Made by a program: the position numbers and the translations under genes. This document shows positions 7,148 to 23,692 of a DNA stretch of 64,000 nucleotides, in pieces. Source of the DNA: Aquibium microcysteis (GTDB taxonomy: Bacteria; Pseudomonadota; Alphaproteobacteria; Rhizobiales; Rhizobiaceae); NCBI RefSeq assembly GCF_014495845.1, contig NZ_CP061080.1:91001-155000 (forward strand), read 5' to 3'. The notes below the pieces were generated by a model. It searched no databases. It saw only the letters and a program-made list of their open reading frames with translations, and had not been told where the DNA came from. The stretch's first letter is position 1; the number at the start of each line of letters is the position of its first letter.

Positions 7148-9373
7148 CTACTTCTCCCGCGCGGTGTAGGTCCCGTCCCAGCCGGCAGGCGGCGGATCGG
7201 CCCGCAGCACGGCCAGACGACCGCGCATGATCTTGTAGAGCTTCGCGAGTTCGACCGGCGCGTCGGCATCGAAATCGTCGAGCGTCTGTTCGGCCGCGTC
7301 GAAATCGAGTGAACGATACTGCGCGAGGAAACGGTCGTGGCGCGCCTTCAGCGCACGGAACGCCTGGCTCTCCTTCACGTCGCGCTGGCCAAGCAGGGTG
7401 TAGACCGGCGTCGGCTCGGCACGGCCGACCAGTTTCACCCGGTCCACCTCCAGCATGGCGAAATCGTCCATGCCCTCGGCCGTGCTGCCCGAAATCAGGT
7501 TCGACAGTCCGTACTGCTTGGTCATGCCCTCGATGCGCGCGGCGACGTTCACCGGGTCGCCGATCGCCGAATAGTCGAAACGCTGGCGCGAGCCGAGATT
7601 GCCCACGCAGCAGATGCCCGTATTGAGGCCGACGCCGACGGCGATGTCCGTTCCGAATTGGCGGTTGAAGCCGACGAGCGCCGCCTGCATGGCGAGCACG
7701 CTTTCGCAGGCCCTGCGCCGGTGGTCGGCGACGTCGAGGGGCGCGTTCCAGAATGCCATGATGCCGTCGCCCATGTATTTGTCGATGGTCGCGCCGCGCT
7801 CCATCAGCACGTCCGTCATGGGAGTGAGGTAGTTGTTGAGGAACTCGGTGAGCTCGTTGGCGCCGAGCTTTTCGGAGAGCGTGGTGAAGCCGCGGATATC
7901 GGCAAACAGCAGCGTCAGTTCCTTGTTCTCGCCGCCGAGCACCAGGCTCTGCGGATTGTCCATCAGCTTCTCGACCATCGACGGCGCGAGATAGTGGCTG
8001 AAGGCCGAGCGGATGTAGCGGCGCTCGCTTTCGCTGACCAGCAGGCGCACGCCCGACGCGATGCCGTAGGCGAGCAGGCTGCTCTGCGCCGGCAGGATGG
8101 GCGAGAGCAGCATGTTGTACCAGGCGAAGGCGAGCCAGCCGGTGACCACCGCGATGGCGATGGCGGCCGCCGCCACCAGCGCATTGGCGAGCGCCGGCAG
8201 CGCCGGCAGGAAGGCCAGCACCAGGATCGTCAGCACCACGGCCAGAGCCACCTCGGCACCGACGGCCCAGTCGGGCCGGCTCAGAAAGGTGCCGCCGAGG
8301 ATCTGGTCGATGATCTCGGCATGGACCAGCACGCCCGGCACGCCCGAGGCGAGGGGGGTGGAGACGAGGTCGCGCAGGCCGATGGCCGACGTGCCGATCA
8401 GCACGATGTGGCCGGCGATCACGTCAGCGAGCGCCGGATCGACCGTGTCGCGCGCGAGTTCGGCCGCAGGCACGACGTTGGCCACCTTCTGTCCGGAGAA
8501 ATAGACCCACATGGTCGCGTCGGGGCTCGTCGGCACCTCGTAGTGGCCGTTCTTCACCGCCACCATGCCCGGCAACCCGGTGTCGTGCTCGCCATGTGCC
8601 CCGGTGCTGCGGATCACGAAGCTGGAGGCGCCCTGCGCGATCCGCAGCGATTCCATGGACAGGGCCGGATAGAGCTTCTCCCCGTAACGGGCGATCAGCG
8701 GGATCTGCCGCACGACGCCGTCGCGGGCAGGGGGGAAGTTGATCAGGCCGATGCCGGGGGCGGCCGCGTCGAGGACGGCGAGGTTGCGCACGCTGCCCTC
8801 GTAGCCGGGCAGGTACTCGAGCGGGCTGAGGCCGCCGAAGCCGAAGCCGGCCTTGGGATCGGGCGGCGGCGTGCGCGTGGTCTCGGCCAGCGCCAGTCCG
8901 GCGATGACGGGCGAGCGTGCGAGCACGTCGGCCAGATAGGCATCGTTGTCGAGCACCGCGCCCTGCGGCGGCTCGGTCACCTGGAACCCCTGCCGCCGCA
9001 GGTCCTGCAGCGCCAGCACGGGCGAGGTGCGGTCCGGCTCGGCCAGCAGCATGTCGAGCCCGATCGACGCCGCGCCCATGTCGGTCATGGTGGCGATGAT
9101 GCGGGCGAGCACCGTGCGCGGCCAGGGCCATTGCCCGAGTTCGCCGATGCTGGCGTCGTCGATGTCGATGACGGTGACCGGGCTGCCGGCCGGCTGCCGG
9201 GGCTTGATGGCCTGGTAGCCGTCGAAGACCATGGCGTTCAGCCGGTCGACCGGGCTGAACGGCGAAAAGGCGGCGAGGATGACGAAGGCCGCCGACAGCA
9301 CGCCCGCCGCCCAGATGGACGTCCGGCGATAGCGCCGCAGGGTCGCGCCGAGATTCCTGGCGAGGCTGGTCAC
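7148..9373 (-). CDS. CHASE2-sensor adenylate cyclase (class III)
   Basis: 741-residue inner-membrane signalling protein. One N-terminal transmembrane helix (about 20-38) is followed by a periplasmic CHASE2 domain (about 50-360, with VIDIDDASIGELGQWPWPR and GHIVLIGTSAIGLRD), then a cluster of membrane helices (about 370-440) and a cytoplasmic class III cyclase domain (about 485-665). The two metal-binding aspartates are Asp492 (FADIRGF) and Asp536 (KYMGDG). Lys532 and Asp606 are the adenine-selecting pair, and Asn609/Arg613 the transition-state residues, so it should make cAMP. It starts at a GTG and is the last gene of a probable operon behind the FecR-domain protein, 69 bases upstream. The CHASE2 ligand is unknown. 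Confidence 0.93.
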   Translation of the reverse strand: MTSLARNLGATLRRYRRTSIWAAGVLSAAFVILAAFSPFSPVDRLNAMVFDGYQAIKPRQPAGSPVTVIDIDDASIGELGQWPWPRTVLARIIATMTDMGAASIGLDMLLAEPDRTSPVLALQDLRRQGFQVTEPPQGAVLDNDAYLADVLARSPVIAGLALAETTRTPPPDPKAGFGFGGLSPLEYLPGYEGSVRNLAVLDAAAPGIGLINFPPARDGVVRQIPLIARYGEKLYPALSMESLRIAQGASSFVIRSTGAHGEHDTGLPGMVAVKNGHYEVPTSPDATMWVYFSGQKVANVVPAAELARDTVDPALADVIAGHIVLIGTSAIGLRDLVSTPLASGVPGVLVHAEIIDQILGGTFLSRPDWAVGAEVALAVVLTILVLAFLPALPALANALVAAAAIAIAVVTGWLAFAWYNMLLSPILPAQSSLLAYGIASGVRLLVSESERRYIRSAFSHYLAPSMVEKLMDNPQSLVLGGENKELTLLFADIRGFTTLSEKLGANELTEFLNNYLTPMTDVLMERGATIDKYMGDGIMAFWNAPLDVADHRRRACESVLAMQAALVGFNRQFGTDIAVGVGLNTGICCVGNLGSRQRFDYSAIGDPVNVAARIEGMTKQYGLSNLISGSTAEGMDDFAMLEVDRVKLVGRAEPTPVYTLLGQRDVKESQAFRALKARHDRFLAQYRSLDFDAAEQTLDDFDADAPVELAKLYKIMRGRLAVLRADPPPAGWDGTYTAREK

Positions 9374-9442
9374 GTCACGGTTCCGACGCCGCCTCGCGGT
9401 ACCGATCGCCCGAATCCATGCCCTGACGGTTCATGGCAGGCG

Positions 9443-12400
9443 TCAGTTTCCGATCCCGCTCTGTGCGCTCCCGGCGATCGTTCCTGTGGCCATGACGTTG
9501 TCGCTTCCGCTCACGCCCTGGAACCCGAAGTTCCCGATGACCCCGCCGGCCTTGATCGGACCATTATTCACGAAGGCGCCGTTGACGGCGCCGTTCATCC
9601 CGGAGCCGCTGAGATAGCCCGAAAACAGTGCCTGATTGCTGGTCGACGCGTCGCTCACCCCGGCGGAAAGGTTCAAGCCATCGAACGAGTTCAGGTTCAC
9701 GGTTCCGGTCCGGTCGTTGAAGTCGAAGGTCATGTTCATCGTGCCCGACGCGATGTATGTCGATGTCCCCTCCTGGTTCTGACGCGTGACGTTGCCGAGC
9801 GCCGTGCCGGAATAGGTGGCGACGATGTTCGTCGGCAGGTCGTCCGGATGGGTGATGTCGCCCGCGACCCAGCTTCCCATGTGGGCATAATCCGTCCGCG
9901 TCTCGGTTCCTTCGCCCGTATCGACCTCAGTCCTGACCCGCGTACCCCACCAGCCCCAGTCGAGGAACGAGCAGTCGCTGCAATGGGCATAGCCGTCGAT
10001 GGGATTCGCCCGGCCGGACACGATGTAGCTGCCAGGATTGTCGCCCGCCTTGTTGGGAAGATCCTGTTCGTCCTCCGTGACGAGACGGGTGTTCTCGTTG
10101 CTGCCGTCATGGACCGCACCGAAGCGGTCGTCGTCGACGAAGGCGCTTCCGACACCGCCGAAGCTGAGCGCGTAGTAGTCGACGACGCCGTTGGTGCTCG
10201 GCCAGTACTCGCCCGGCACCTGGAGGGTGTCGTAGAGGACCGCCGACGCGGAAACGGTGTTGTTCACCGCATCGGTCGACAGCGTGAGCGTCGGATTGAT
10301 GCCGCTCATGCCGATGTAGGGGTTTTCGGCGCCGCCGTCGCTCGATTCGAACAGGCCGGCCATGAAGCCCTGATGGGTGCGCGTCGTGCGGCTGAGTTCG
10401 CCCTGCGGGGTCGTGTCCGTCAGCGAGGCCACGTGATGGGTCGCGAAGGGGAAGCCGTCTGCCAGATAACCGTCCTGCTGGTTGCCCGTGTATCCGGCGT
10501 TGTTCAGCGTCGTATCGGCAAACCCATCCGCAGGCGTGATGCTGGCGCCCAGGACGAAATGCTCGGCATTGGCGCCGAAGAACGCATTGCCGGAGGGCCC
10601 CGCCGTGGCGACCACCGAGCCGCGCATGTTGGCCGGCCCTTCGCCGGCGTCGAAGCGGAACGAGCCGCGCCGGATGCCGGCAAGCGTGGCGTCGCCTTCG
10701 TCGTCGATGCCGACCGGGCTTGCGATGACGAAGGCCGCGCTCTTCTGGTTCGAGCCTTCCCCCTCGATATAGATCCAGGACTGGAACAGCTTCGCGTCGA
10801 GATTGGTCTCGCCCGTTCCGTAGTTCGCAGCCGTATCCGATTCCACGATGAAGAGGTTCGAGGAACTGAGGAACTGGTTGTCGACGGCGCCGAACAGATC
10901 GTCCACGAAGAAGGGCGCGTCGATTCCTTCGATGGGATCCTGCGTCAGCGTGTACTCGCGCACGTTCGTCCCGGTGTTGAGGCTGGAGATCACTTCGCTG
11001 GAGGTCGGCGTGCCGACGATCACCTGATAGGGATCGCGCGGATCGCCATCGAAGCCGAGGAAATAGGCCGCGAAGTCGCCGGCACCGGCATAGGCGACGC
11101 CCGAGACGGCCTGGCCGTCGGCGATCGTCCCGCCGATGATCGTGGTCGCGAGCCCCTCGTCGCCCACGGTTCCGGTGAGGTCGGGAAGCGAGGTGAGCGT
11201 GTCCTCGTTCATGAGGAGACCGCCGACCTTGTCGAAGACGATGTTGCGGTCGGACGCTTCCGTCGTGCCGACGAGACCGCGCTGGCCCGCATTCTCGAAG
11301 GAATCCTCCGACCCGAGGGGGACGAAGATGTCCGGCGCCGTCAGCACCCGCGCCGTCACGATCTCGACCCGCTCCGTCTGCTTGCCGACGATCGTGCCGA
11401 CGGCGTAGAAGTCTTCGTTGTTGATCGTGAAATCGCCGATCACGCCGGCGGCGATGGTTTCGCCGTCGTTGACGAAGGCGCCGCTGACGTAGAAATAGGT
11501 CTGGCTTTCCCCGTTGGTGGCGTAGAACTCGGCCTGCTGCGATTCGCCGATCCCGTAGGCGACGCCATCGAGAGAGACACCGGCGAAATTGTCGATCCAG
11601 AACTCGCCGGCGCGGTCGTTGAAGTTGTAGCTCATGCCGAACGTGCCGGACGCGATGTACTGCGCGGCACCGGCTTCGCCCTGATACGATGCGACCGTGC
11701 CCAGCATCGTGCCTTCGTAGGTCGCGCGCACATTGATCGGCATGTCGACCGCTGCGGTGATGTCGCCTGCGACCCAGGTCCCCATGTGGACGTAGTCGCG
11801 CCGGCCATAGGGGAGCGCTTCGCTCTCCTCCGGCTCCACGACGACGCGCGTGCCCCACCAGCCCCAGTCGATGAAGTCGCAGTCCGCGCAGTGCGAATAG
11901 CCTTCGATCGGGACGGCGCGGCCGGACACGAGATAGCTGCCCGCATTCGTCGTGTCGGTGTGGGCGACCTCCTCGCCTTCGATCTCGTTGTAATAGTCCG
12001 CGTCCGTCAGGATGCGGGTGTTCAGCGGGGAATTGTTCTGGACCGCGCCGTAGACGTCGTCATTGACGAAGGTGTTGCCGCCCGTGGCGCCCTCGCCGGT
12101 GGTAACCAGCGGACTGAAGCCGCCGATCGGGACGCCGTCCACCCCCTCTGGCGCGGCGCCGAAGGTGAGCAGATACTTGTCCACCTCCAGGTCGTTGCCC
12201 CGGACGTCGGTGACCACGCCGACCGCCGCCACCGAATTGTTTTCGGCGTTCAGCTGCATGAAGAAATTCGGACCAGCCTCGCCGGCGAGCGCGACCGGGT
12301 AGTTCGGATCGAAATTGGTTTCCATGGCGCCGGCCATGAATCCCGAGACCGTCCGCGTCGTGCGCGCGACGTTCTCCTGCGGCGTTTCCTCGACCAGCGC

Positions 12401-14110
12401 GGCCACGTGCTGCGTGACGAAGGTGCCGTCCTCGTCATAGGGATCGACGGAGGAATCGACGAAGGAATCGTTCGGGTCCAGCGTCGAGCCGATGACGAAA
12501 TGGTCGGCATTGTCGCCGAAGAAATGCGATCCGTCCGGACCGGCGAGCGTGGTCATGTAGCCGCGCATGTTGACGGCGCCGTCATAGGAGGACGAACGAT
12601 AGCTGCCGCGGCGCGACCCTTCGAGAGTATCGGTGCCCGCCTCGTCTTCGCTGGCCGCCGAAGCCGTGACGAAGGCCGCACTCTTCTGGTTCAGCCCGTC
12701 GCCCTCGATCGAGATCCAGCTCATGAAGGTCTCGAATTCGCCGGTGGTCGAACCGCCCGGCTCGACGATGTAGAAATCGGTCGAACTCGCGTTCGTGACG
12801 GGACCGTAGGAGGTCGGCGCGAAGAACGGCACGCCGCCCGTGCTCGGGTCCGAGGTCAGCGTGTAGCGGCGGATGTCGTTGAGCGAGACGTTCTCCGGCG
12901 CTTCCGTGAGCTCCGTTCCCGTGCCGTGGATCATGTAGAACGGGTAGGCCGTCTCCGTCCCGTATTCGAGCAGGTAGGCGGCGAAATCGCCGCGGCCGGC
13001 ATAGGCATAGCCGGTGAGGGAATCGGCGCCGAAGAGTCCGTCGTCGACCGTGAAGGTCTCGAGGCCCGCATCGCCCTGTGTCCCGGTGTAGTCGGGAAGG
13101 TCGATCGCGGCTTCGTCCGAAACCAGACGTCCGCCGGTTTTCGTGAAGGTCACCTCTTCCTGCGTGAAGATCTGAGGCACGCTGAGGCTTCTGAAGCTGA
13201 AGCCCGAAACGGCGCCGGGTCCGCCATAATAGACCGTGCCGGAGCTCGTGGCCGGTGTCGTGACCTCGCCGCGCGTGTCGACGTCGCCGACATTGGTCTC
13301 GATGTCGTCGACGTCCGTCGCCTTCACCGCAACCGAACGCGGCGTGGGCAGCGGCGCGTTGTTGGGGAGGTTCGAGTTGCTCTGCGGGAGCGGGCTGTTC
13401 TGCACCGTCCCGTCGTTCGGCTGCTCGTCGGAGCCGCCCGTCTGCCCGTCGCCGCCGGACAGGTCGGACTGGAACGTCGAGGCGTCGCTCTCCGTTCGGC
13501 GCCGCACGTTGGTGTCGAGCCCGCCGCCGCGGCCGCCCTGGACGACCAGCGTATAGCCCGGCTCGTAGATGCGCGAGCGCCGGCCGTCGCGGCCCCGGAA
13601 CTGCACCTCGTCGCCGAAGATCATGGAGAACAGGGCCTTGTCGGAGGATTCGACACGACCCTCGACCATGGCGCCGCGGATGCCGATGGTGCCCACCGGC
13701 GTGTTGATCGTGGCGCCGTCCGGCCGGCGGCTGGTCTGGCCGCCGATGAAGCGGAACGCGCCCTTGGCGACGGAAGCGACGACCTTGGCGTCGCCGGTCG
13801 CGGGGTTGTAGACGAACTCGTCGATGGTGAGCTGGCTGTTCGGCCCGACCGTGAAGGTGGTGCCGTCGAGCAGCAGGATCTGGACGAGCCCGCGTCCGTC
13901 GGTGGTGATCTCTTCGTTGAAGATGACGTTCTGACCAAGCGAGATGATGCGCGGCGCGGCCCCCGGCGGCCGACCCTTGGCGTCGGTGTTGACGGCGGCG
14001 GCAACGCCTACCTTGGCGAAGGCGGGCGCCTGTGCCGACACGAGAGCGACGGCGGCCACGCCGGCGGCGAGGCTGCGCATCGGGACCGATCGTGCGAAGG
14101 GGGCAGCCAT
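9443..14110 (-). CDS. Giant exported FecR-domain protein with two tandem repeats ending in TbpB-like barrels
   Basis: 1555 residues. A Sec signal peptide ends near Ala32 (QAPAFA); no lipobox Cys is present. A FecR domain follows (about 50-195: ISLGQNVIFNEEITT, TVGPNSQLTIDEFVY, TPVGTIGIRG), then an Asn/Ser/Gly-rich linker. Residues about 319-911 and 955-1555 are two divergent copies of one 600-residue unit, offset by 636 residues. Each unit holds an HCxDC motif (Cys741/744 and Cys1377/1380, the only cysteines in the protein) just before DWGWWGTRV, and ends in a Gly-rich beta pattern (YIASGT-FNDR-GAFVN-GGVIG) resembling the C-terminal barrel of TbpB-like proteins. Its ATG lies two bases after the stop of the Slam-like gene, with an AAGAGG ribosome-binding site, so the two are coupled. 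The TbpB-like assignment is by eye. Confidence 0.8.
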   Translation of the reverse strand: MAAPFARSVPMRSLAAGVAAVALVSAQAPAFAKVGVAAAVNTDAKGRPPGAAPRIISLGQNVIFNEEITTDGRGLVQILLLDGTTFTVGPNSQLTIDEFVYNPATGDAKVVASVAKGAFRFIGGQTSRRPDGATINTPVGTIGIRGAMVEGRVESSDKALFSMIFGDEVQFRGRDGRRSRIYEPGYTLVVQGGRGGGLDTNVRRRTESDASTFQSDLSGGDGQTGGSDEQPNDGTVQNSPLPQSNSNLPNNAPLPTPRSVAVKATDVDDIETNVGDVDTRGEVTTPATSSGTVYYGGPGAVSGFSFRSLSVPQIFTQEEVTFTKTGGRLVSDEAAIDLPDYTGTQGDAGLETFTVDDGLFGADSLTGYAYAGRGDFAAYLLEYGTETAYPFYMIHGTGTELTEAPENVSLNDIRRYTLTSDPSTGGVPFFAPTSYGPVTNASSTDFYIVEPGGSTTGEFETFMSWISIEGDGLNQKSAAFVTASAASEDEAGTDTLEGSRRGSYRSSSYDGAVNMRGYMTTLAGPDGSHFFGDNADHFVIGSTLDPNDSFVDSSVDPYDEDGTFVTQHVAALVEETPQENVARTTRTVSGFMAGAMETNFDPNYPVALAGEAGPNFFMQLNAENNSVAAVGVVTDVRGNDLEVDKYLLTFGAAPEGVDGVPIGGFSPLVTTGEGATGGNTFVNDDVYGAVQNNSPLNTRILTDADYYNEIEGEEVAHTDTTNAGSYLVSGRAVPIEGYSHCADCDFIDWGWWGTRVVVEPEESEALPYGRRDYVHMGTWVAGDITAAVDMPINVRATYEGTMLGTVASYQGEAGAAQYIASGTFGMSYNFNDRAGEFWIDNFAGVSLDGVAYGIGESQQAEFYATNGESQTYFYVSGAFVNDGETIAAGVIGDFTINNEDFYAVGTIVGKQTERVEIVTARVLTAPDIFVPLGSEDSFENAGQRGLVGTTEASDRNIVFDKVGGLLMNEDTLTSLPDLTGTVGDEGLATTIIGGTIADGQAVSGVAYAGAGDFAAYFLGFDGDPRDPYQVIVGTPTSSEVISSLNTGTNVREYTLTQDPIEGIDAPFFVDDLFGAVDNQFLSSSNLFIVESDTAANYGTGETNLDAKLFQSWIYIEGEGSNQKSAAFVIASPVGIDDEGDATLAGIRRGSFRFDAGEGPANMRGSVVATAGPSGNAFFGANAEHFVLGASITPADGFADTTLNNAGYTGNQQDGYLADGFPFATHHVASLTDTTPQGELSRTTRTHQGFMAGLFESSDGGAENPYIGMSGINPTLTLSTDAVNNTVSASAVLYDTLQVPGEYWPSTNGVVDYYALSFGGVGSAFVDDDRFGAVHDGSNENTRLVTEDEQDLPNKAGDNPGSYIVSGRANPIDGYAHCSDCSFLDWGWWGTRVRTEVDTGEGTETRTDYAHMGSWVAGDITHPDDLPTNIVATYSGTALGNVTRQNQEGTSTYIASGTMNMTFDFNDRTGTVNLNSFDGLNLSAGVSDASTSNQALFSGYLSGSGMNGAVNGAFVNNGPIKAGGVIGNFGFQGVSGSDNVMATGTIAGSAQSGIGN

Positions 14111-14112
14111 GG

Positions 14113-15486
14113 TCAGAACCTCTTCACGACGCTGAGCGAGACGGAGACGTTGTCGTAGTCGCGGATCGCATAGTTGGAACTGACGTTGCGGTACTCGCCG
14201 TCGGCCATCAGCGACCAGCTCCTGGACACCGGCACCAGCAGGCTGGCGCCCACATAGGCCTCGTGGTCCACCTCGGCCTGGGTCGGGTCGATGACCGGAT
14301 CGGCCTCGTCATACGCGCGGTACACGTAGCCGGCGGTCGGCGACAGCGTCCAGGGACCGTACTGGCCGCCCAGCGGCGAGGCGAAGGCATAGCTGAAGCC
14401 GCCCGAGATGCCGGCCTCGACATAGGCGAGATAGCTGCGCTCGGCTTCGGTCAGCTGCACGTAGCCGCCACCGGTCAGCATGAAGCTCGGCGTCACGATG
14501 TAGCTGTTGTTCGTGTAGAGGCGGTACTCGCTGCCGTCGCGGTTGTCGGCGGTCGGAGCCGCGCTGGATTCCTGGTAGTCCCGGTAGCGGTATTCGAAGG
14601 CGGTGAGCAGCGACGTTCGGGCCGAGGGGCGGATGACGAAGCGTGCGCCCGCACCGCCGGCCGCCGAATAGAAGTGGTCGTTGACGAAAGCGCCGGACGC
14701 GATGCCGTAGACGCCGAGCACCGCGTTGTCGATGCCGAAACGGCCCATGTCGAAGGCCGGGCCGAAGGTGACCTCCCCGAGCGCCGTGTCGAGCTCGTCG
14801 CGCTCGAACTGCTTTGAGGCATAGGTGATGAGGTCGACCTCGAGCGAATCGCCCTGGCTGGGCAGGTCGTAGCTGAAGTGAAACAGCCCGGCGCCGTAGA
14901 CGTTGCCGTCGGACGCGCCTGCCGATCCCGGATCGATCGTCAGGCCGCCGCTTGTCAGGACGGTGCCGATGCCCGGGGCACGGTTGGCGTTGGTCTGGTA
15001 GCGTACCCCGAGACGGACCTGACCCGAGAACCGCGTATCCATCTCCGCCGTCGCGATGCCCGCCAGGTATTCCTCCACCTTGGCCCGCACCTCGTCCGGC
15101 ACCTGCTGGCCGGAGATCGCGGACGTGAAGTAGGTCCGTGCCGTCTCGAAGGCGCCGAGCCGGTAGTACAGCACGCCGAGTTCGAGCTGCAGACGCGGCA
15201 GGCCGGGCGCGAAGATGAGCATGCGCTCCAGCGTAGCGATCGCCGCTTCGAGATCGCCCACTTGCGCGGAGAGGGCTGCGTACCGGAAGGCCGTGTCGAG
15301 ATCGTCGGGCTTTTCGAGCATGCGCTGGAACAGCGCCGTGCGCTGCGCCTGCAGGGTCGCGACGTCGGCGGTGACCTGTGGAGGGGCAACCGTCTTCGGC
15401 GCGACCTTGGGATCGGTCTGCGCGGAAGCGGCGGTCGAGCACAGAAATGCGCCCGCCGCCAAGAGAACTCGCATCCTCAGTTGCAC
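14113..15486 (-). CDS. TPR plus outer-membrane beta-barrel protein, Slam/DUF560-like
   Basis: 457 residues from a GTG at 15486, chosen because GGAGGG lies five bases upstream and the signal peptide (to about Ala22, STAASA) then starts cleanly. A longer frame to 15531 is open but adds a polar leader. TPR-like helices cover about 55-140 (AALSAQVGDLEAAIATLERM, LGVLYYRLGAFETARTYF). The rest (about 152-457) is a series of amphipathic strands and ends in Phe (VSVSLSVVKRF), the usual signature of an outer-membrane barrel. The junction carries VRYQTNANRAP, similar to the N-x-N-x-A-P segment at the start of DUF560 barrels. Slam proteins translocate TbpB-like cargo across the outer membrane; the next gene encodes such a candidate. 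The Slam label is an inference. Confidence 0.7.
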   Translation of the reverse strand: MQLRMRVLLAAGAFLCSTAASAQTDPKVAPKTVAPPQVTADVATLQAQRTALFQRMLEKPDDLDTAFRYAALSAQVGDLEAAIATLERMLIFAPGLPRLQLELGVLYYRLGAFETARTYFTSAISGQQVPDEVRAKVEEYLAGIATAEMDTRFSGQVRLGVRYQTNANRAPGIGTVLTSGGLTIDPGSAGASDGNVYGAGLFHFSYDLPSQGDSLEVDLITYASKQFERDELDTALGEVTFGPAFDMGRFGIDNAVLGVYGIASGAFVNDHFYSAAGGAGARFVIRPSARTSLLTAFEYRYRDYQESSAAPTADNRDGSEYRLYTNNSYIVTPSFMLTGGGYVQLTEAERSYLAYVEAGISGGFSYAFASPLGGQYGPWTLSPTAGYVYRAYDEADPVIDPTQAEVDHEAYVGASLLVPVSRSWSLMADGEYRNVSSNYAIRDYDNVSVSLSVVKRF

Positions 15487-15718: not shown

Positions 15719-16495
15719 TCAGCGCGGGTGATGAAAAAGGTTGAGATAAGTCGGATCGAAGTCGGCGAGCCTGACGAGACCGTCCCAGTCGCGAATCGTG
15801 ATGCGATTGCCTTTCCAGGTGGTGAGGCCGGTCGCACGAAGGTCCTGCAACGTCCGGTTCGTGTGCACGATCGAGAGCCCCACGAGGTCGGCGATCTCCG
15901 CCTGCGTCAGCGGGAAGTCGAAGGAGCCGTTCTCCACGAGCCCCACCACTTCCAGGCGCCGGTACACTTCGCAGACAAGGTAGGCGAGGTGGCGGATCGG
16001 CTCCATGCGGCCCATACAGGCAATCCAGTTGCGCTGAATGGCGGCGTCGATGGCGACCATCATGAAGAGCACGCGGCCCAGATGCGGCATCTCGGTCGCC
16101 AGCCGCTGGATGTCGCGGTGCGGCACCATCGCCACGGTCACCGGGGTCAGCGAGATGACGGCATGGTCCATGATCTTGAGAAAGAAGCCGTGCAGATCGA
16201 CGAAATCGCCCGGCACGTGCAGCGCCGTCAGTTGGCGGTTGCCGTTGGCGAGGTGCCGGCTGCGAGCGGCCAGCCCGTCGACCAGAAGGCAGCTCTCCGT
16301 CGGCCGGGCGGCTTCCGCGACGATCTCCTCGCCGTCGCCGAAACGCTTGAGTCGCCACGGCAGATCGCGCAGCGCCTGCCGCTCCTCGTCCGACAGCGCG
16401 TCGCGCCGCTCCAGCGACGCGATCAGCGGCTGGGGATCGAAGCGCTGGGTATCGCCGGACGGCCCGGACTGTGTTCCCGACGGCGGCGGATCCAT
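15719..16495 (-). CDS. Crp/Fnr-type transcriptional regulator
   Basis: 258 residues. An N-terminal cyclic-nucleotide-binding-like beta roll (about 25-145: CLLVDGLAARSR, LHVPGDFVDLHGF) is joined by a dimerisation helix to a winged HTH whose recognition region is LTQAEIADLVGLSIVHTNRTLQDL (about 196-220). The phosphate-binding Arg-Ser of true CRP is not visible in the GDFVDLHGFFLKIMD loop, so cAMP binding is doubtful. There are no N-terminal Fe-S cysteines as in Fnr. The ATG at 16495 lacks an obvious ribosome-binding site and the frame is open far upstream, so the start is approximate. It is 232 bases upstream of, and codirectional with, the Slam-like/FecR/cyclase operon. Confidence 0.85.
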   Translation of the reverse strand: MDPPPSGTQSGPSGDTQRFDPQPLIASLERRDALSDEERQALRDLPWRLKRFGDGEEIVAEAARPTESCLLVDGLAARSRHLANGNRQLTALHVPGDFVDLHGFFLKIMDHAVISLTPVTVAMVPHRDIQRLATEMPHLGRVLFMMVAIDAAIQRNWIACMGRMEPIRHLAYLVCEVYRRLEVVGLVENGSFDFPLTQAEIADLVGLSIVHTNRTLQDLRATGLTTWKGNRITIRDWDGLVRLADFDPTYLNLFHHPR

Positions 16496-16854
16496 TACGA
16501 GGATCCGCGACCCGGTGTCGCCTGCGCGGATCCTGGTCTTCCCATCTTCGTAACTCGCCAAAACGACGTCCCCGTGCTTGCAGGCCGGCCTGATCCGGAC
16601 GAAACGCAGGCAATGGCGCGGGGTTCCGCGGGGAAGAGGGCGGAATCCCGACATGCGGATGGCCGGCGTGGACGAGGGAACCCCGGGACGAGTCAGTGGT
16701 TCTTGCGAAGCCGCCGCACACTTGGCCCAACACCCGACTGCGGCGGTCGCGCCGTCGCGCAGGTCGCGGCGGCGCGATTTCCGCGGCGGCTGGAGCGCGC
16801 CGTGGTGCCGTGGTCTTGTGACGCGCAGCGGATGGTCCTGGTCCCGTTCCCGCG

Positions 16855-16897
16855 CATGTCTTTCACCCGAAACCGATGCCCGCTTCCGGCAGACATG
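16855..16897. repeat. Short imperfect palindromic intergenic repeat, copy 1
   Basis: Begins CATGTCTTTCACCCGAAACC and ends CCGGCAGACATG, so its ends form an inverted repeat. A second copy is at 18298-18339. It lies in the 419-base gap between aroQ and the Crp-type gene (16496-16914), in which I see no gene. Similar CATGTC...GACATG elements are scattered between genes in Mesorhizobium relatives. Confidence 0.6.
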
Positions 16898-16914
16898 TTC
16901 GTCCGGCGATGCGG

Positions 16915-17355
16915 TCACCCGCGCCGCAGCAGCGTCGCCATCCGGCGCGTCGCGAGCGCGTATCCCTCGACCCCGAAGCCCGCGATCACGCCGTCCGCCC
17001 GCAGCGAGACGTAGGAATGATGGCGGAAGCTCTCGCGCTTGTGCACGTTCGAGATGTGGACTTCGAGCACGGGTCCTTCGAACGCGTTCAGCGCGTCGAG
17101 GATCGCGATCGACGTGTGCGTGAAGGCGCCCGGATTGATGATGATGCCGGCCGCCGCCTCCCGCGCCTCGTGGATCCAGTCGATGATCTGGTGTTCGGCG
17201 TTGGATTGCATGAAGCGCAGGCCGAGGCCGGACGTCTCCGCGAGCGCCCGGCACGCGGCCTCGACGTCGGCGAGCGTCTCGCGGCCGTAGATCTCCGGCT
17301 GGCGTTTGCCGAGCAGGTTGAGGTTGGGTCCGTTGAGGATGAACACCGTCTGCAT
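16915..17355 (-). CDS. aroQ: Type II 3-dehydroquinate dehydratase
   Basis: Dehydrates 3-dehydroquinate to 3-dehydroshikimate in the shikimate pathway. All 146 residues match the type II family: [18 protein letters not shown] with catalytic Tyr23, [10 protein letters not shown] with Asn74 and His80, and VHISN with His100 followed by Arg111. Length is normal. In several rhizobia aroQ precedes accB-accC; here it is followed by the Crp-type gene instead, so the local order differs. Confidence 0.96.
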
Positions 17356-17618
17356 GGCAGCCTCCCGCGCGCCCGCCGATCCCCCGGGCGTCGCGATCGG
17401 CGACGACCGGCCGGCCTTTCGATGGCCGCGTTAGGTCCGATTTTCGCGGCGCCGTCAAGCAGCCCAAGGGCGCGTGGGATGTCTCTGCGACCGGGTGCGG
17501 GCCTCCCGCCGGAACGATCCGACGGCGTCGCGGTTCGGAGGGCGGAACGGGGACGGACCCGCCGCTCATGAGGGCAGGCGGATGCCCGGGTCCCGCAGCG
17601 ATGGAAGGGAACCCTCCG

Positions 17619-17981
17619 ATGATCGACACCAAGACACATGGATACATCGACTATGCCACCGGACTGCTTCTGCTCGTCGCGCCCTACCTGTTCGGTTTTG
17701 CCACCGGCGGCGTCGAGCAGTGGCTGCCGCAGCTGATCGGCGCGGTCGTCATCGTGATGAGCCTGCTCACGCGCTACGAACTCAGTGCGGCCAAGGTCAT
17801 CCCGCTGCGGGCGCATCTCGGCGTCGACATGGCGAGCGGGGCGCTGCTGGCCGTCTCGCCGTGGCTCTTCGGTTTCGCCGGCATCATCTGGTGGCCGCAC
17901 CTGATGGTCGGTCTGATGGAGATCGTCGTCGCCGCCGTGACCCGTCGCGACCCCGAGGCCGCCGCGCGCGGCCGGCCCTGA
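17619..17981 (+). CDS. SPW-repeat membrane protein
   Basis: 120-residue protein with four predicted membrane helices in two similar halves: VAPYLFGFATGG and VSPWLFGFAGII are the paired SPW-type motifs. The ATG at 17619 is preceded by GGAAGGGA at a proper distance, and upstream in-frame starts add only a non-conserved leader. The function of SPW-domain proteins is unknown. It stands alone between aroQ (divergent) and the tRNA gene. Confidence 0.85.
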   Translation: MIDTKTHGYIDYATGLLLLVAPYLFGFATGGVEQWLPQLIGAVVIVMSLLTRYELSAAKVIPLRAHLGVDMASGALLAVSPWLFGFAGIIWWPHLMVGLMEIVVAAVTRRDPEAAARGRP

Positions 17982-19628: not shown

Positions 19629-20909
19629 TCAGCGCGCTGCCGTCGTTGCGCATGTCGCGGGCCGATAGTGGCGCATCACCGTCCACTGGTGGCGCTGCTC
19701 CAGCGCGATCCCGCCCCAGACGAGGCCGAGCAGGAGATAGAAGTGGCGCCAGTGATCGGTGTCGATGACGGTACCGAGCAGCACGTGCCCGAGGAACACC
19801 ACCCAGGCGCACAGGAGGTAGGGCTGCCACGGCCGGTCGCGGAACAGGATGCGCAGGCCGGCCGCCAGCGTCCAGACGATCATGGTGAGCCAGCAGGCGA
19901 AGCCCAGCCAGCCATAGTCCATCAGGGCCTTCAGCCAGATGTTGTGCGTGTCCTCGCCGTAGAGCTTGCCGAAGACCAGCGGGCCGATCCCGAGCGGCTT
20001 CTCCATCGCGAGCACGAAGCCGATGGCATGGCGGGCAAAGCGCCCGAGGCGCGCGCCGTCATAGTCCTGGACGAGCTGGGCGCGGGTCGAGAAGATGTCG
20101 GCGATGGCGGGGATCTGCAGCGCCACAAGGAGTCCGACCGCCAGCAGGCCGAAGGCCACGCCGCCCATCAGGAGGAGGCGCAGCCTGAAGAAGGCGCTGC
20201 GGCTGCGGATGAACAGGAGCAGCGAGAGCAGCAGCGCCGAGAAGGCGAACAGGCCCCAGGCGCCGCGCGAGAAGGACAGGAACACGCCGAACGTGATGAT
20301 GCCGAGCGGCAGGGCGAGCAGCGGCATCCTGGCCACGGGTCCGGTGAGCATCCGGTAGAGCAGGTAGATGCCGGGCAGCGTGATGAACGGGCCGAAGACG
20401 TTGGGGTCCTGGAAGGCGCCGGCCGCGCGCTCGAACTTGGTGAACATCTCCGCGCCGGGAAAGGCGTGGAAATAGCCGAGGATGCCGAGGACGGAGGTGA
20501 AGAGCGCCGCCGCCACCCAGGCGTGGAAGATCAGGCGGAAGAGCTGCGGCCGGCCGTCGAGCACGGCCGCGTAGAAGATCGCGGTGAAGGCGAGGAACAG
20601 CGAGACCGCGATGTAGAGCGGCGCGTCGCCCAGCACCGCCATCTGGGTCGCCGCGATCATCCCGCCGATGTTGAAGACGACCAGCAGGACGGCGAGCGGG
20701 GTGACGGCGCGCGAGATGCGCAGTCCGAACAGCGCCCAGACGGCGATCAGCGCCACCATGTAGAGCTCGTAAGGCGCCGGCTCGCGGATGACGAAGCCCG
20801 ACAGGAAGACGCCGAGCGTCACCGCGCCGGTCGGCAGCAGGCCGGCCAGCCAGGCGTTGACCTCCGCGCGCGGGACCGCGCGATGCGAAAGGGCGGCGCT
20901 CGCGCTCAA
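19629..20909 (-). CDS. O-antigen ligase / Wzy-type polysaccharide polymerase
   Basis: 426-residue inner-membrane protein with about ten hydrophobic segments and the O-antigen ligase-family pattern: AFQDPNVFGPFI, then LSFSRGAWGLF, and a large loop ending HNIWLKALMDYGWLGF. It probably polymerises exopolysaccharide repeat units at the periplasmic face. Translation appears to start at a TTG (20909) that overlaps the TGA of the upstream priming transferase; no ATG is suitably placed. It is the last gene of the minus-strand export operon. Confidence 0.87.
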   Translation of the reverse strand: MSASAALSHRAVPRAEVNAWLAGLLPTGAVTLGVFLSGFVIREPAPYELYMVALIAVWALFGLRISRAVTPLAVLLVVFNIGGMIAATQMAVLGDAPLYIAVSLFLAFTAIFYAAVLDGRPQLFRLIFHAWVAAALFTSVLGILGYFHAFPGAEMFTKFERAAGAFQDPNVFGPFITLPGIYLLYRMLTGPVARMPLLALPLGIITFGVFLSFSRGAWGLFAFSALLLSLLLFIRSRSAFFRLRLLLMGGVAFGLLAVGLLVALQIPAIADIFSTRAQLVQDYDGARLGRFARHAIGFVLAMEKPLGIGPLVFGKLYGEDTHNIWLKALMDYGWLGFACWLTMIVWTLAAGLRILFRDRPWQPYLLCAWVVFLGHVLLGTVIDTDHWRHFYLLLGLVWGGIALEQRHQWTVMRHYRPATCATTAAR

Positions 20910-22441
20910 TAGGCGTTTTCCGTGTTGAGCAGCCGGATCGGCGTCAGGAAGAGGATCTTGAGGTCGAACCAGAGCGACCAGTTCTCGATGTAGTGCAGAT
21001 CGAACTCGGTGCGCTTGCGGATCTTCTCGTCCGTGTCCATCTCGCCGCGCCAGCCGTTGATCTGCGCCCAGCCGGTGACGCCCGGCTTGACCTTGTGGCG
21101 GGCGAAGTAGCCGTCGACCACCTCCGTGTAGAGCAGGTTGTGCGACTGCGCGGCGATGGCGTGCGGCCGCGGCCCGACGAGCGACAGGCTGCCGAGCAGC
21201 GCGTTGAAGAACTGCGGCAACTCGTCGATCGACGTCTTGCGGATGAAGCGACCGACGCGCGTGACCCGCGGATCGCCCTTGGTGACGGCGCGCTTCGCCG
21301 TCGGGTCCGACTGGTCGGCATACATCGAGCGGAACTTGAAGACCTCGATGACGTCGTTGTTGAAGCCGTGCCGCTTCTGCTTGAAGAGGACCGGCCCCTT
21401 CGAATCGAGCTTGATGGCGATCGCCGTCGCGATCATGACCGGCGAGAAGACCAGGATGCCGAGCAGCGAGAAGACGATGTCGAAGGCGCGCTTGGCGACG
21501 GAGTCCCAGTCGTTGATCGGCTTGTCGAAGATGTCGAGCAGCGGTACCGACCCGACGAAGGAGTAGGCGCGCGGCCGGAAGCGCAGCTCGCTCGAATGCG
21601 CCGACAGGCGGATGTCGACCGGCAGCACCCAGAGCTTCTTGAGCAGCGACAAGACGCGCGACTCGGCGGTGAGCGGCAGCGAGACGATCAGCATGTCGAT
21701 GCGCGCGATGCGGGCGAACTCGATCAGTTCCGAGACGTTGCCGAGCTTGGGGTAGCCGGCCACGATCGGCGGCGATCGGGTGTCGCTGCGGTCGTCGAAG
21801 ATGCCGCAGATGCGGATGTCGTTGTCGGCCTGCTGTTCGAGCGAGCGGATCAGCGTCTCCGCCCCGCTGCCGCCGCCGACGATCACCGCGCGGCGTTCCA
21901 TCGTGCCGTTGCGCGCCCAGCGGCGGATCAGGCGCGACATCACGAGCCGCAGGACGAAGAGCGTTGCGAGACCGGAAAGGTACCAGGTGCCGAACCAGAG
22001 GCGTGAGAAGTCCTGCGAGGTCTTCATGAGGAAGGCACCGAGCGCCATCAGGGCAAAGACCCCTGACCAGACGAGGACGATCCTGCGGGCATGCGCGAAA
22101 GGACGGCGCAGCGCTGCCATCTGGTATGCGTCGGCGATCTCCAGCAGGACGACCGCGAGCAGCGCGCCGCCGAAGCTCGTCCAGACGTAGCTCCAGTCCA
22201 TGCCGATCCGGTCGTAGTGCATGTAGTGCGCGGCGGCGCCGCAGAGTGCGAGCAGCAGGAATTCCAGGATGCGCAGCTTGCCGCTCACCATCACCGGCGA
22301 CATGGTGTCCGATCGATATTGCGCGGCCACCCGTTTCGCGAAAGGTCCGAGCTCCGTCGGCCCTCCCCGCGGCGCGTGGGGGTCGTCGAAGCGTCGAACG
22401 GCATCCGGCGTGAAGCGCGATGACGGGTCGATCTGGTTCAT
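20906..22441 (-). CDS. Undecaprenyl-phosphate glycosyl-1-phosphate transferase (polyprenyl glycosylphosphotransferase)
   Basis: 511 residues. Four or five membrane helices (about 50-170), a nucleotide-binding-like domain (VIVGGGSGAETLIRSLEQQ), a further helix and the C-terminal bacterial sugar-transferase domain: KRAFDIVFSLLGILVFSP, then FKFRSMYAD, TSIDELPQFFNAL and SLVGPRPHA. It loads the first sugar phosphate onto undecaprenyl phosphate and so starts each repeat unit; the sugar (often glucose or galactose) cannot be read from sequence. Its stop overlaps the start of the polymerase gene, indicating coupling. Confidence 0.93.
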   Translation of the reverse strand: MNQIDPSSRFTPDAVRRFDDPHAPRGGPTELGPFAKRVAAQYRSDTMSPVMVSGKLRILEFLLLALCGAAAHYMHYDRIGMDWSYVWTSFGGALLAVVLLEIADAYQMAALRRPFAHARRIVLVWSGVFALMALGAFLMKTSQDFSRLWFGTWYLSGLATLFVLRLVMSRLIRRWARNGTMERRAVIVGGGSGAETLIRSLEQQADNDIRICGIFDDRSDTRSPPIVAGYPKLGNVSELIEFARIARIDMLIVSLPLTAESRVLSLLKKLWVLPVDIRLSAHSSELRFRPRAYSFVGSVPLLDIFDKPINDWDSVAKRAFDIVFSLLGILVFSPVMIATAIAIKLDSKGPVLFKQKRHGFNNDVIEVFKFRSMYADQSDPTAKRAVTKGDPRVTRVGRFIRKTSIDELPQFFNALLGSLSLVGPRPHAIAAQSHNLLYTEVVDGYFARHKVKPGVTGWAQINGWRGEMDTDEKIRKRTEFDLHYIENWSLWFDLKILFLTPIRLLNTENAY

Positions 22442-22564
22442 GTCGCTGAGCCTGTTGTGGCTCGAACGCTAGCGCGGATCGGCTAACATTCCCTTGCGAT
22501 CGCGCCGCGTATTGGACGGATCCGGCGGCCGGGCGTGGCGTTCGACGCGCGTCTCCGCACGGCC

Positions 22565-23692
22565 TCAGGGCAGGACGCTGCGGTAGACGGCCTCGATCTC
22601 CTGCGCCATGCGGGCGACCGAGAAGCGCTCGGCGATGTCGGCGGGCCGCGGCATGGTGGCGGCCCAGGCATCCGGATCGCCGACCGCCAGGGCCATCTTG
22701 CCGGCGATGGCGACCGGATCCGGCGTCACCAGCGCCGTCGGCGCACCGGCGAAGATCTCGGGGATGCCGCCGACCGCGCTGGCGATCATCGGCCGGCCGG
22801 CCGCCAGCGCCTCGAGCACGATGTAGGGCAGAGCTTCCGCGCGCGACGGCACGACGACGGTCCGGGCGAGCGCGAAGGCCTGTCTGGCGGGCATGGGATC
22901 GAGGAAGGTGACGCGGGACGACATGCCGCGCTCCGCCACGGTGGCGACGTAGCGGTCGCGGTCGTCACCCGAGCCGACCATGACGGCCGTCAGCGGCCGG
23001 CCAAGCGCATTCTCGGCCAGCCCGAGTGCATCGATGAAGATGTCGGGTCCCTTCAGGTCGCGCATCATGCCGATGTAGAGGAAGTCGCTGGCGTCGGCGG
23101 CAGGCAGGACGGGCTCGAATTCTGCCGGCGTCACGCCGTTGTAGATCACGCGATGGCCGACTTTCGGCTCCCCCACCTTGCGGCGATAGGTGTCCTGTTC
23201 GTATTCGGACACGAAGAGTATCTGCTCCGAAACCCGCTCCAGCAGGCCCTCGAGCATGAACGTGGCGCGGCCCGTCATGCTCGAGGGACTGTAGTGCAGG
23301 CTGCCCCCGTGGGGCGAGTAGAGGCGGGCGACGCGAGACCTGGATACCCGCAACAGTGAGCCGAACACGCGCGAATAGACGCCACCCTTGGCGCTATGGC
23401 CGTGCAGGATGTCCGGCTGCAATTCCCTGATCAGTCCGAACGTCCGCCAGGCCGCGGCGATGTCGCCGAGCCCGACGTGACGCTGCATGGGCGTGCGCCG
23501 CACGCCCAGTTCGAGTTTCGGTTCCATGGCGCGGAACAGCCGCGCCTCGTAGTCTCCTCCCGTGGAGGAATCGCAGACGATCCCGACCTTGTGTCCCGCC
23601 GCCGCCTGCGCGTCCGCGAGGTCGCGCACGTGGCGGAATATCCCGCCGACCGGCGACCGGAAGCAGTGGACGATGCGCAGGCCCTGGCTCAC
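22565..23692 (-). CDS. Glycosyltransferase family 4 protein
   Basis: 375-residue GT-B glycosyltransferase. The N-terminal acceptor domain opens with IVHCFRSPVGGIFRHVRDL. The C-terminal donor domain shows YIGMMRDLKGPDIFIDAL, VVVPSRAEALPYIVLEALAAG and a GGIPEIF loop, the usual E-x7-E region of GT4. It probably adds a sugar to the lipid-linked repeat unit. The start is a GTG 21 bases after the stop of the export lipoprotein gene. It is the only ordinary glycosyltransferase in the locus. Confidence 0.92.
   Translation of the reverse strand: MSQGLRIVHCFRSPVGGIFRHVRDLADAQAAAGHKVGIVCDSSTGGDYEARLFRAMEPKLELGVRRTPMQRHVGLGDIAAAWRTFGLIRELQPDILHGHSAKGGVYSRVFGSLLRVSRSRVARLYSPHGGSLHYSPSSMTGRATFMLEGLLERVSEQILFVSEYEQDTYRRKVGEPKVGHRVIYNGVTPAEFEPVLPAADASDFLYIGMMRDLKGPDIFIDALGLAENALGRPLTAVMVGSGDDRDRYVATVAERGMSSRVTFLDPMPARQAFALARTVVVPSRAEALPYIVLEALAAGRPMIASAVGGIPEIFAGAPTALVTPDPVAIAGKMALAVGDPDAWAATMPRPADIAERFSVARMAQEIEAVYRSVLP

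Follow-up and report, generated by a model that had tools for sequence, protein, structure and literature searches.

The window, a stretch of 64,000 nucleotides from Aquibium microcysteis (assembly GCF_014495845.1, contig NZ_CP061080.1, positions 91,001 to 155,000), contains three neighbouring genes encoding a tetratricopeptide repeat (TPR) and barrel protein (gene 1), a very large exported FecR protein (gene 2) and a CHASE2 adenylate cyclase (gene 3). Their order, their location on one strand (minus) and the spacing of two bases between genes 1 and 2 had been claimed in an original prediction made from the sequence alone, and were confirmed from the open reading frames (ORFs) of the window; genes 2 and 3 are separated by 69 bases. 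Gene 1 starts with GTG, with an in-frame ATG at 15474, and a 2273-residue ORF on the plus strand overlapping the same DNA was treated as a shadow ORF. The closest named relatives are found in Aquibium, with gene 1 identities of 86 and 81%. We propose, with middling confidence, that the locus is a type XI secretion system (T11SS), or Slam-like, export module for a surface receptor that is coupled to cyclic AMP (cAMP) signalling. Four computational results carry this proposal: the folds and families of the three products, a conserved gene pair, a genome-wide link to CHASE2, and an exchange of the lipobox for FecR.

The three genes and their protein families

Gene 1 encodes a putative signal peptide (by eye), followed by TPRs and a barrel. 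The TPRs scored above the Pfam cut-off and the C-terminal part gave a weak match to SlipAM (DUF560, PF04575), in agreement with the predicted architecture. The predicted NANRAP junction is present as well; a NAN-x-P type motif is found in 60 of 68 aligned relatives, and similar motifs (e.g. NINNAP, NVNAGP) in 9 of 30 PF04575 proteins, a comparison set drawn from 42 matches in 299 genomes of the phylum. SlipAM matches with E ≤ 0.01 were obtained for 17 of the 68 relatives, the best being 7.8e-8. When the gene 1 family profile was compared with the PF04575 alignment using hhalign, the two aligned with a probability of 100 (E = 6.1e-44) over 383 columns covering both TPRs and barrel, and the barrel alone gave E = 1e-29. 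Two other barrel families served as controls, BcsC_C (12 proteins; probability 32, E = 4.8e-4) and BBP2_2 (20 proteins; probability 89.5, E = 2e-6). Classic SlipAM itself scores 95 and 97 with these families, so such remote likeness is general among barrels. The possibility that gene 1 is a porin or polysaccharide exporter was rejected, as the BcsC_C and BBP2_2 scores are far below that of SlipAM.

The AlphaFold2 model of gene 1 (mean confidence, pLDDT, 90.2) consists of TPR helices and 14 strands; the classic Slam barrel also has 14 strands. In a Foldseek search the first rows were BcsC, CymA and porins. The high rank of 14-stranded porins is evidence of barrel size only, and the fold search is not decisive on the identity of gene 1, since no solved Slam structure was among the rows shown. 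In a phylogenetic tree the group containing the window's gene comprised 124 rows and no PF04575 row (support 94), with the reservation that 3 of the 30 PF04575 rows (L150, L151 and L158) had been translated in the wrong frame. Judged from the profiles, gene 1 is clearly related to the Slam translocons of type XI secretion and is a candidate translocon.

Gene 2 had been described as an exported FecR protein with TbpB-like ends. The FecR domain (PF04773; 32.3 bits against a cut-off of 24) and the lobes both stood, but the lobes are more than mere ends. Residues ~316–909 and ~953–1547 form a tandem duplication with 40% identity, and each copy terminates in one of the two barrels noted earlier. 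The duplication became visible after splitting the sequence, self-BLAST of the intact protein giving the diagonal only. The modelled unit 1 is predicted to end in a TbpB/HpuA/fHbp-like lobe, the lobe profile matches solved fHbp, and the architecture of T11SS cargo, a C-terminal handle and an 8-stranded barrel, is present. Two stretches weakly match the "Slam-dependent surface lipoprotein" model (E = 9.5e-8, 32.5 bits against a cut-off of 80), the better one in the barrel of unit 2. Kinship to DUF560 and to the TbpB barrel, failure of which had been named beforehand as a possible refutation, was thus found in both cases by profile or structure. The linker between FecR and the units was modelled with low confidence. 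Among 103 gene 2 matches (own entry included), forms of ~930 and ~1555 residues and one of 2178 residues (P0132) are prominent, and by eye and length these would correspond to one, two and three units. A Cys-x-x-Cys followed by a WGWW motif occurs at residues 741–753 and at the matching site in unit 2; C741, C744, W749, G750 and W752 are invariant across 64 aligned proteins.

The FecR domain differs from that of FecR/PupR cell-surface signalling in being exported, as the N-terminal domain of a larger protein. It is located behind a signal peptide with no cytoplasmic anti-sigma segment, and no sigma factor is encoded among the ten scanned neighbours of the locus. FecR positions 50–96 match 5ix9, a cell-surface anchoring domain of the adhesin type, which suggests some likeness to the retention module of LapA/MpIBP-type adhesins. 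Part of the domain is left unmatched, and the LapA retention model NF033682 was found below its cut-off of 50 bits in two of six scanned FecR relatives (L246, 24.7 bits; L020, 23.0 bits) and was not listed for gene 2 itself at E ≤ 1. LapA uses a TolC-like pore and LapG/LapD. The FecR domains of all six relatives (L004, L020, L074, L217, L222 and L246) also weakly match Leptospira Lsa33 or LipL45, which may point to kinship with FecR-type domains in surface proteins of spirochaetes.

Gene 3 proved to be a CHASE2 adenylate cyclase as claimed (CHASE2, E = 6e-53, 180.4 bits; class III cyclase, E = 9e-18, 64.9 bits). D492, K532, D536, N609 and R613 are invariant in all 50 aligned cyclases, and position 602 is S or T in all of them; the catalytic residues are intact in gene 3. 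The genome of the window contains a single CHASE2 gene and a single gene 1. In 2016 the ligand or signal of CHASE2 was called not known (PMC5192318, cited here after excerpts, as are PMC5498481, PMC7529298, PMC9090332, PMC9239204 and PMC13001267).

Table 1. Features of the three-gene locus, in window positions
Feature	Positions	Strand	Basis
Gene 1: TPR and predicted 14-stranded outer-membrane barrel, Slam/SlipAM-related, 457 residues	14113..15486	minus	Pfam, AlphaFold2, profile-profile comparison
Gene 1 TPR/helical domain, residues ~42–147	15046..15363	minus	TPR_9 over cut-off; AlphaFold2
Gene 1 barrel, residues 151–457, 14 predicted strands	14116..15036	minus	
Gene 2: exported FecR protein with two tandem lobed units, 1555 residues	9443..14110	minus	
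Gene 2 signal peptide, residues ~1–32, no cysteine and hence no lipobox	14015..14110	minus	By eye
Gene 2 FecR/PupR-like domain, residues 63–224	13439..13924	minus	
Gene 2 unit 1, residues ~316–916; 583–916 match TbpB C-lobe	11363..13165	minus	Splitting and predicted structure
Gene 2 unit 2, residues ~953–1547, tandem copy of unit 1	9470..11254	minus	40% identity; known from sequence alone
Gene 3: CHASE2 class III adenylate cyclase, 741 residues	7148..9373	minus	
Gene 3 CHASE2 domain, residues 31–384	8222..9283	minus	Pfam
Gene 3 cyclase catalytic domain, residues 484–653	7415..7924	minus	Pfam; conserved residues

FecR and the lipid anchor of the cargo

A search for lobe barrels gave 109 ORFs that carry FecR (108 distinct). 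Signal peptides and lipoboxes were judged by simple patterns and by eye. A first home-made pattern, which allowed no proline (LPAC, LPGC), found a lipobox in two of the 109. A looser pattern rerun on this set gave a lipobox-like string in 11 ORFs, somewhere among the 80 residues preceding FecR; by eye only that of L066, and possibly those of L040 and L046, is in a workable position, so that at most 3 of the 109 would be lipoproteins. Lobed ORFs without FecR numbered 19, of which seven with cut or broken N-termini were left out; the remaining 12 were judged together with L310, whose weak lobe match fell below the threshold in the larger search. A lipobox was found in 12 of these 13 (seven by script, five by eye), the exception being L300. 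Nine of the 13 have a translocon gene beside them (L280 twice, L300, L303 twice, L305, L306, L309 and L310). These neighbours are of the classic kind; the PF04575-based model beats the gene 1 model in the six scored, and L280 reaches 119 bits for PF04575. Conversely, the gene 1 model outscored the SlipAM model in 93 of 93 barrels beside FecR with lobes, in 33 of 33 beside FecR without a lobe match, and in none of the six beside lobes without FecR. This contest is a consistency check, as the models were built from these very groups, and E-values of home-made models depend on the input sequences.

Taken together, the lipobox tallies and the model contest suggest that FecR and lipid stand in for each other at one and the same end of the cargo. 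FecR may take the place of the lipid anchor, and would then act as a periplasmic stop or plug. The original prediction regarded a FecR-fused cargo with a cyclase as a different architecture; FecR now looks like an exchange for the lipid anchor and not an odd fusion. Gene 2 is by sequence not lipidated and so lacks the lipidated N-terminus of T11SS cargo. Non-lipidated T11SS cargo is known, however, and the missing lipobox is therefore no bar to such a status. If general, the exchange of lipid for FecR offers a simple rule for sorting T11SS cargo.

A different explanation would be that the lobes remain in the periplasm and bind a ligand entering through the barrel of gene 1. The absence of a lipobox in gene 2, the porin-like barrel and P0199, a metagenome ORF in which a gene 2 lobe is continuous with a CHASE2 cyclase, are consistent with it. 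If real, the P0199 fusion would not fit surface lobes; it is possibly a deletion or an assembly fault. We nevertheless consider periplasmic lobes very unlikely: fHbp is a surface lipoprotein moved by Slam, and the FecR-less relatives carry lipoboxes, mostly next to classic Slam genes. TbpB and HpuA are likewise described as surface lipoproteins moved by Slam (PMC9090332).

P0199 was not used as proof of interaction, since it lacks the final strand of the lobe and the beginning of CHASE2 and comes from one contig in its cluster. The same applies to P0069, a barrel–FecR fusion on one contig, in which the reading frame appears by eye to shift where gene 1 ends.

Distribution of the gene set

In named genomes we found 79 loci with a relative of gene 1, and in all of them a FecR gene is located directly downstream on the same strand. 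A lobe barrel was detected in 71 of these FecR genes; the other eight are four cut by contig ends (L010, L013, L033 and L057), three short FecR-only genes (L024, L031 and L055), and L068, which encodes a long FecR protein with no lobe match at the threshold used. A CHASE2 cyclase gene is present at 50 of the loci (downstream at 44, upstream at six), and 9 of the 79 are undecidable at contig ends.

In a sample of 387 genomes of the class, gene 1 matches were found in 67, one of them a classic Slam, which makes the barrel family common, and CHASE2 in 194. CHASE2 is encoded in 65 of the 67 genomes with gene 1 and in 129 of the 320 others (Fisher 7e-20, kinship not corrected for). One of the two without it is the classic Slam locus (G111); in the other (G397), a cyclase with a weak, partial CHASE2 match adjoins gene 1 (L258). 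At least 31 of 66 genomes have gene 1 and CHASE2 no more than 10 kb apart, with the order and orientation of the two varying. Rare co-occurrence of the three genes had been a stated ground for doubt, and strong co-occurrence was found instead. The two genome samples share some members (L064 and L223 appear to be one locus), and none of the counts was corrected for kinship.

A model of the lobe barrel only matched in 49 of the 387 genomes, 39 of which have gene 1; in four of the 39 (G093, G111, G126 and G185) the lobed proteins examined lack FecR. In each of the five gene-1 genomes of family f83 there is one gene 1 place lacking FecR and lobe neighbours, and between one and six lobed proteins are encoded elsewhere; of these 11 proteins 10 show FecR and the eleventh is cut. 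This could be how one translocon serving several scattered cargos would look in a T11SS, judging from gene positions. Genome G316 of the sample contains one lone Slam-like barrel and six scattered lobed proteins (L288–L293, L210), all six with FecR.

FecR and CHASE2 genes also occur together on plasmids. L204 (Paracoccus aminophilus pAMI5) has the barrel as well; the fetched stretches of L205, L206 and L207 gave no match to gene 1 or to the SlipAM model. Genes for a CRP regulator, a FecR protein and a CHASE2 cyclase are found on a small plasmid of the gammaproteobacterium Methyloprofundus (pINp10, L208); two genes further along, the plasmid encodes a protein that weakly matches the SlipAM model (E = 4e-8), and the whole is perhaps a distant version of the set. 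At L313 (G002) a CHASE2 cyclase gene and a partial gene 1 match flank three tandem FecR genes.

A surface receptor coupled to cAMP: proposal and alternatives

In the proposed mechanism, Sec would export the products of genes 1 and 2, and that of gene 1 would insert into the outer membrane. There it would be engaged by the final lobe of gene 2, and the C-terminal TbpB/fHbp-like lobes would pass to the surface and fold outside. Gene 2, having no lipid, would be kept at the envelope by its N-terminal FecR domain folded in the periplasm. The CHASE2 domain of gene 3, also in the periplasm, would receive the state of the lobes outside from FecR, and gene 3 would set cAMP production accordingly. We infer the translocation, the periplasmic retention and the contact between FecR and CHASE2 from the families involved. 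The original prediction, in which gene 1 would export gene 2 and the cyclase would report on it, is thus supported in part, through the Slam homology, the TbpB-type lobes and the co-occurrence of the genes. A role of CHASE2 in reading FecR is supported by the pairing of the two elsewhere, on the plasmids L204–L207 and in published systems (PMC9239204, PMC5192318).

A more specific version is tentative and, in our view, somewhat unlikely. Here type XI export would be stalled, with gene 2 threaded through or docked on the translocon, the lobes outside, the FecR plug in the periplasm, and ligand binding at the lobes read by the CHASE2 cyclase inside; in evolution the plug would have come to serve in place of the lipid anchor, the two being exchangeable. 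If true, a secreted surface protein would have been turned into a signalling receptor.

Several observations weigh against the export and signalling proposal. The SlipAM match of gene 1 (E = 0.0044, 17.0 bits) does not reach the Pfam cut-off of 22, a remote similarity to BBP2_2 exists, and the fold search shows that the barrel fold is shared with porins. LipL45 is named a lipoprotein, and FecR and lipid may therefore not exclude each other everywhere. Among genomes near that of the window, gene 1 is unevenly distributed, being found in 3 of 5 sampled members of the genus and in 11 of 61 relatives, and two genomes (G094 and G340) encode a similar CHASE2 protein with no gene 1 match. Furthermore, CHASE2 is missing despite room at 20 of the 79 loci, and one genome (G001, locus L011) has no CHASE2 at all.

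The latter loci could indicate an ordinary T11SS exporting a surface protein, with the cyclase a co-regulated neighbour that has no direct link to it. The pair of genes 1 and 2 evidently occurs without a local CHASE2, and at such loci the scanned neighbours are varied and unrelated. However, 19 of the 20 genomes without a local CHASE2 carry one elsewhere (the copy in G015 being a weak match), and 17 of these 19 distant copies score E ≤ 1e-110 with a model based on gene 3. So do three of six copies from genomes without gene 1 (L330, L334 and L347), and this score was accordingly rejected as a clean mark of the gene 3 type and is suggestive only. A FecR gene is found within the fetched stretch of three of the 19 distant copies. 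Together with the co-occurrence in 65 of 67 genomes and the proximity of the two genes in varied arrangements, this makes an ordinary T11SS with an unconnected cyclase quite unlikely.

The main difficulty for a coupled export module is a FecR-only branch, which has no lobe match but keeps the barrel and FecR, and half of whose members also have CHASE2 nearby. Of 77 gene 1 places listed class-wide, 73 were classified by neighbourhood. FecR with lobes is next door in 22, FecR without a lobe match in 26 (13 of them with CHASE2 within 6 kb) and FecR within 15 kb in four; one shows a lobe but no FecR, and the remaining 20 neither of the two. Where FecR is directly behind gene 1, 26 of 48 are thus without a lobe-model match. 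Five FecR-only proteins (L024, L031, L246, L250 and L253) have 281–309 residues. The barrel can be retained where lobes are missing, as these variants show. It follows from the neighbourhood counts that the tight three-part form is typical of the closer relatives of the window, and that the wider family is looser.

Alternatively, the barrel itself could be an outer-membrane sensor with FecR as relay to CHASE2, in the manner of NsrA with CyaK/CyaD; the lobes would be optional and export not the main job. The FecR-only branch and the plasmids L205–L207 are consistent with such a sensor, and NsrA is required for CyaK and CyaD1/D2 signalling (PMC7529298). Within the FecR-only branch the barrel may sense directly, by analogy with what has been proposed for NsrA (PMC7529298, PMC13001267). 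For the family as a whole we consider this unlikely, since gene 1 is Slam-like, whereas the NsrA barrel lies at residues 600–1200 (PMC7529298), and since, across genomes, lobed FecR proteins go together with gene 1 also where the two are not neighbours.

Some FecR proteins adjoining gene 1 relatives (L264, L269, L270 and L273) have a different tail of ~200 residues that is beta-like by eye and does not match the TbpB barrel, and L273 has two in a row. FecR proteins of ~410–435 residues in family f56 have a tail that gave no match to the TbpB-type lobe barrel in hhalign.

Compared with known systems, the locus shares with type XI secretion the TPRs and 14-stranded barrel, the TbpB/fHbp-like cargo next door and the profile-profile homology to SlipAM. 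It differs in that gene 1 is below the family cut-off and in a separate tree group, the FecR cargo is not lipidated and a CHASE2 cyclase is attached. A word search of the main texts of PMC12282271 and PMC8406197 found no mention of FecR, CHASE2 or cyclase. The Sinorhizobium meliloti NsrA–CyaK/CyaD1/D2 system likewise has an outer-membrane barrel acting via CHASE2 cyclases, although a barrel of another build (PMC7529298, PMC13001267); the word FecR does not occur in the available text of these papers. A FecR gene of the same species, SMc02177, is discussed among Clr-related genes (PMC5498481). In the BiofilmReg operon of Burkholderia contaminans a FecR protein also adjoins a CHASE2 sensor, but these are a LysM-FecR protein and a CHASE2 histidine kinase, and the excerpts describe neither a barrel nor lobes as components (PMC5192318). 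A CHASE2 cyclase cluster of Campylobacterota includes a phosphodiesterase, unlike the window locus, and the excerpts identify no Slam or TbpB-type domains in it; it is set apart by this description and not by sequence (PMC9239204).

The FecR–CHASE2 linkage, which had been thought different, is therefore in part already in print (PMC9239204, PMC5192318), and what is new here is the exchange of the lipobox for FecR in lobed cargo. Our literature search found no report joining FecR to DUF560, TbpB, surface lipoprotein assembly modifier or retention module and, with most subscription journals beyond its reach, none linking type XI secretion to second-messenger signalling. The gene set is widespread in soil and marine bacteria and apparently undescribed. 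It names a candidate partner for CHASE2 (FecR) and a candidate surface sensor (the TbpB-like lobes), and would tie type XI secretion to second-messenger signalling.

Adjoining gene 1 upstream in the window, a CRP/FNR-type regulator with cNMP-binding (cyclic nucleotide monophosphate) and Crp helix-turn-helix domains is encoded at 15719 to about 16430 on the minus strand (ORF 15719–17647). This regulator could be a target of cAMP. It was rejected as a fourth part of the set, being found near gene 1 only in the genome of the window and at two Aquibium loci, with a weak match at L061. Further upstream, at 19629–23692 on the minus strand, polysaccharide genes encode an O-antigen ligase of the Wzy_C type, a CoA_binding_3 sugar transferase and a glycosyltransferase.

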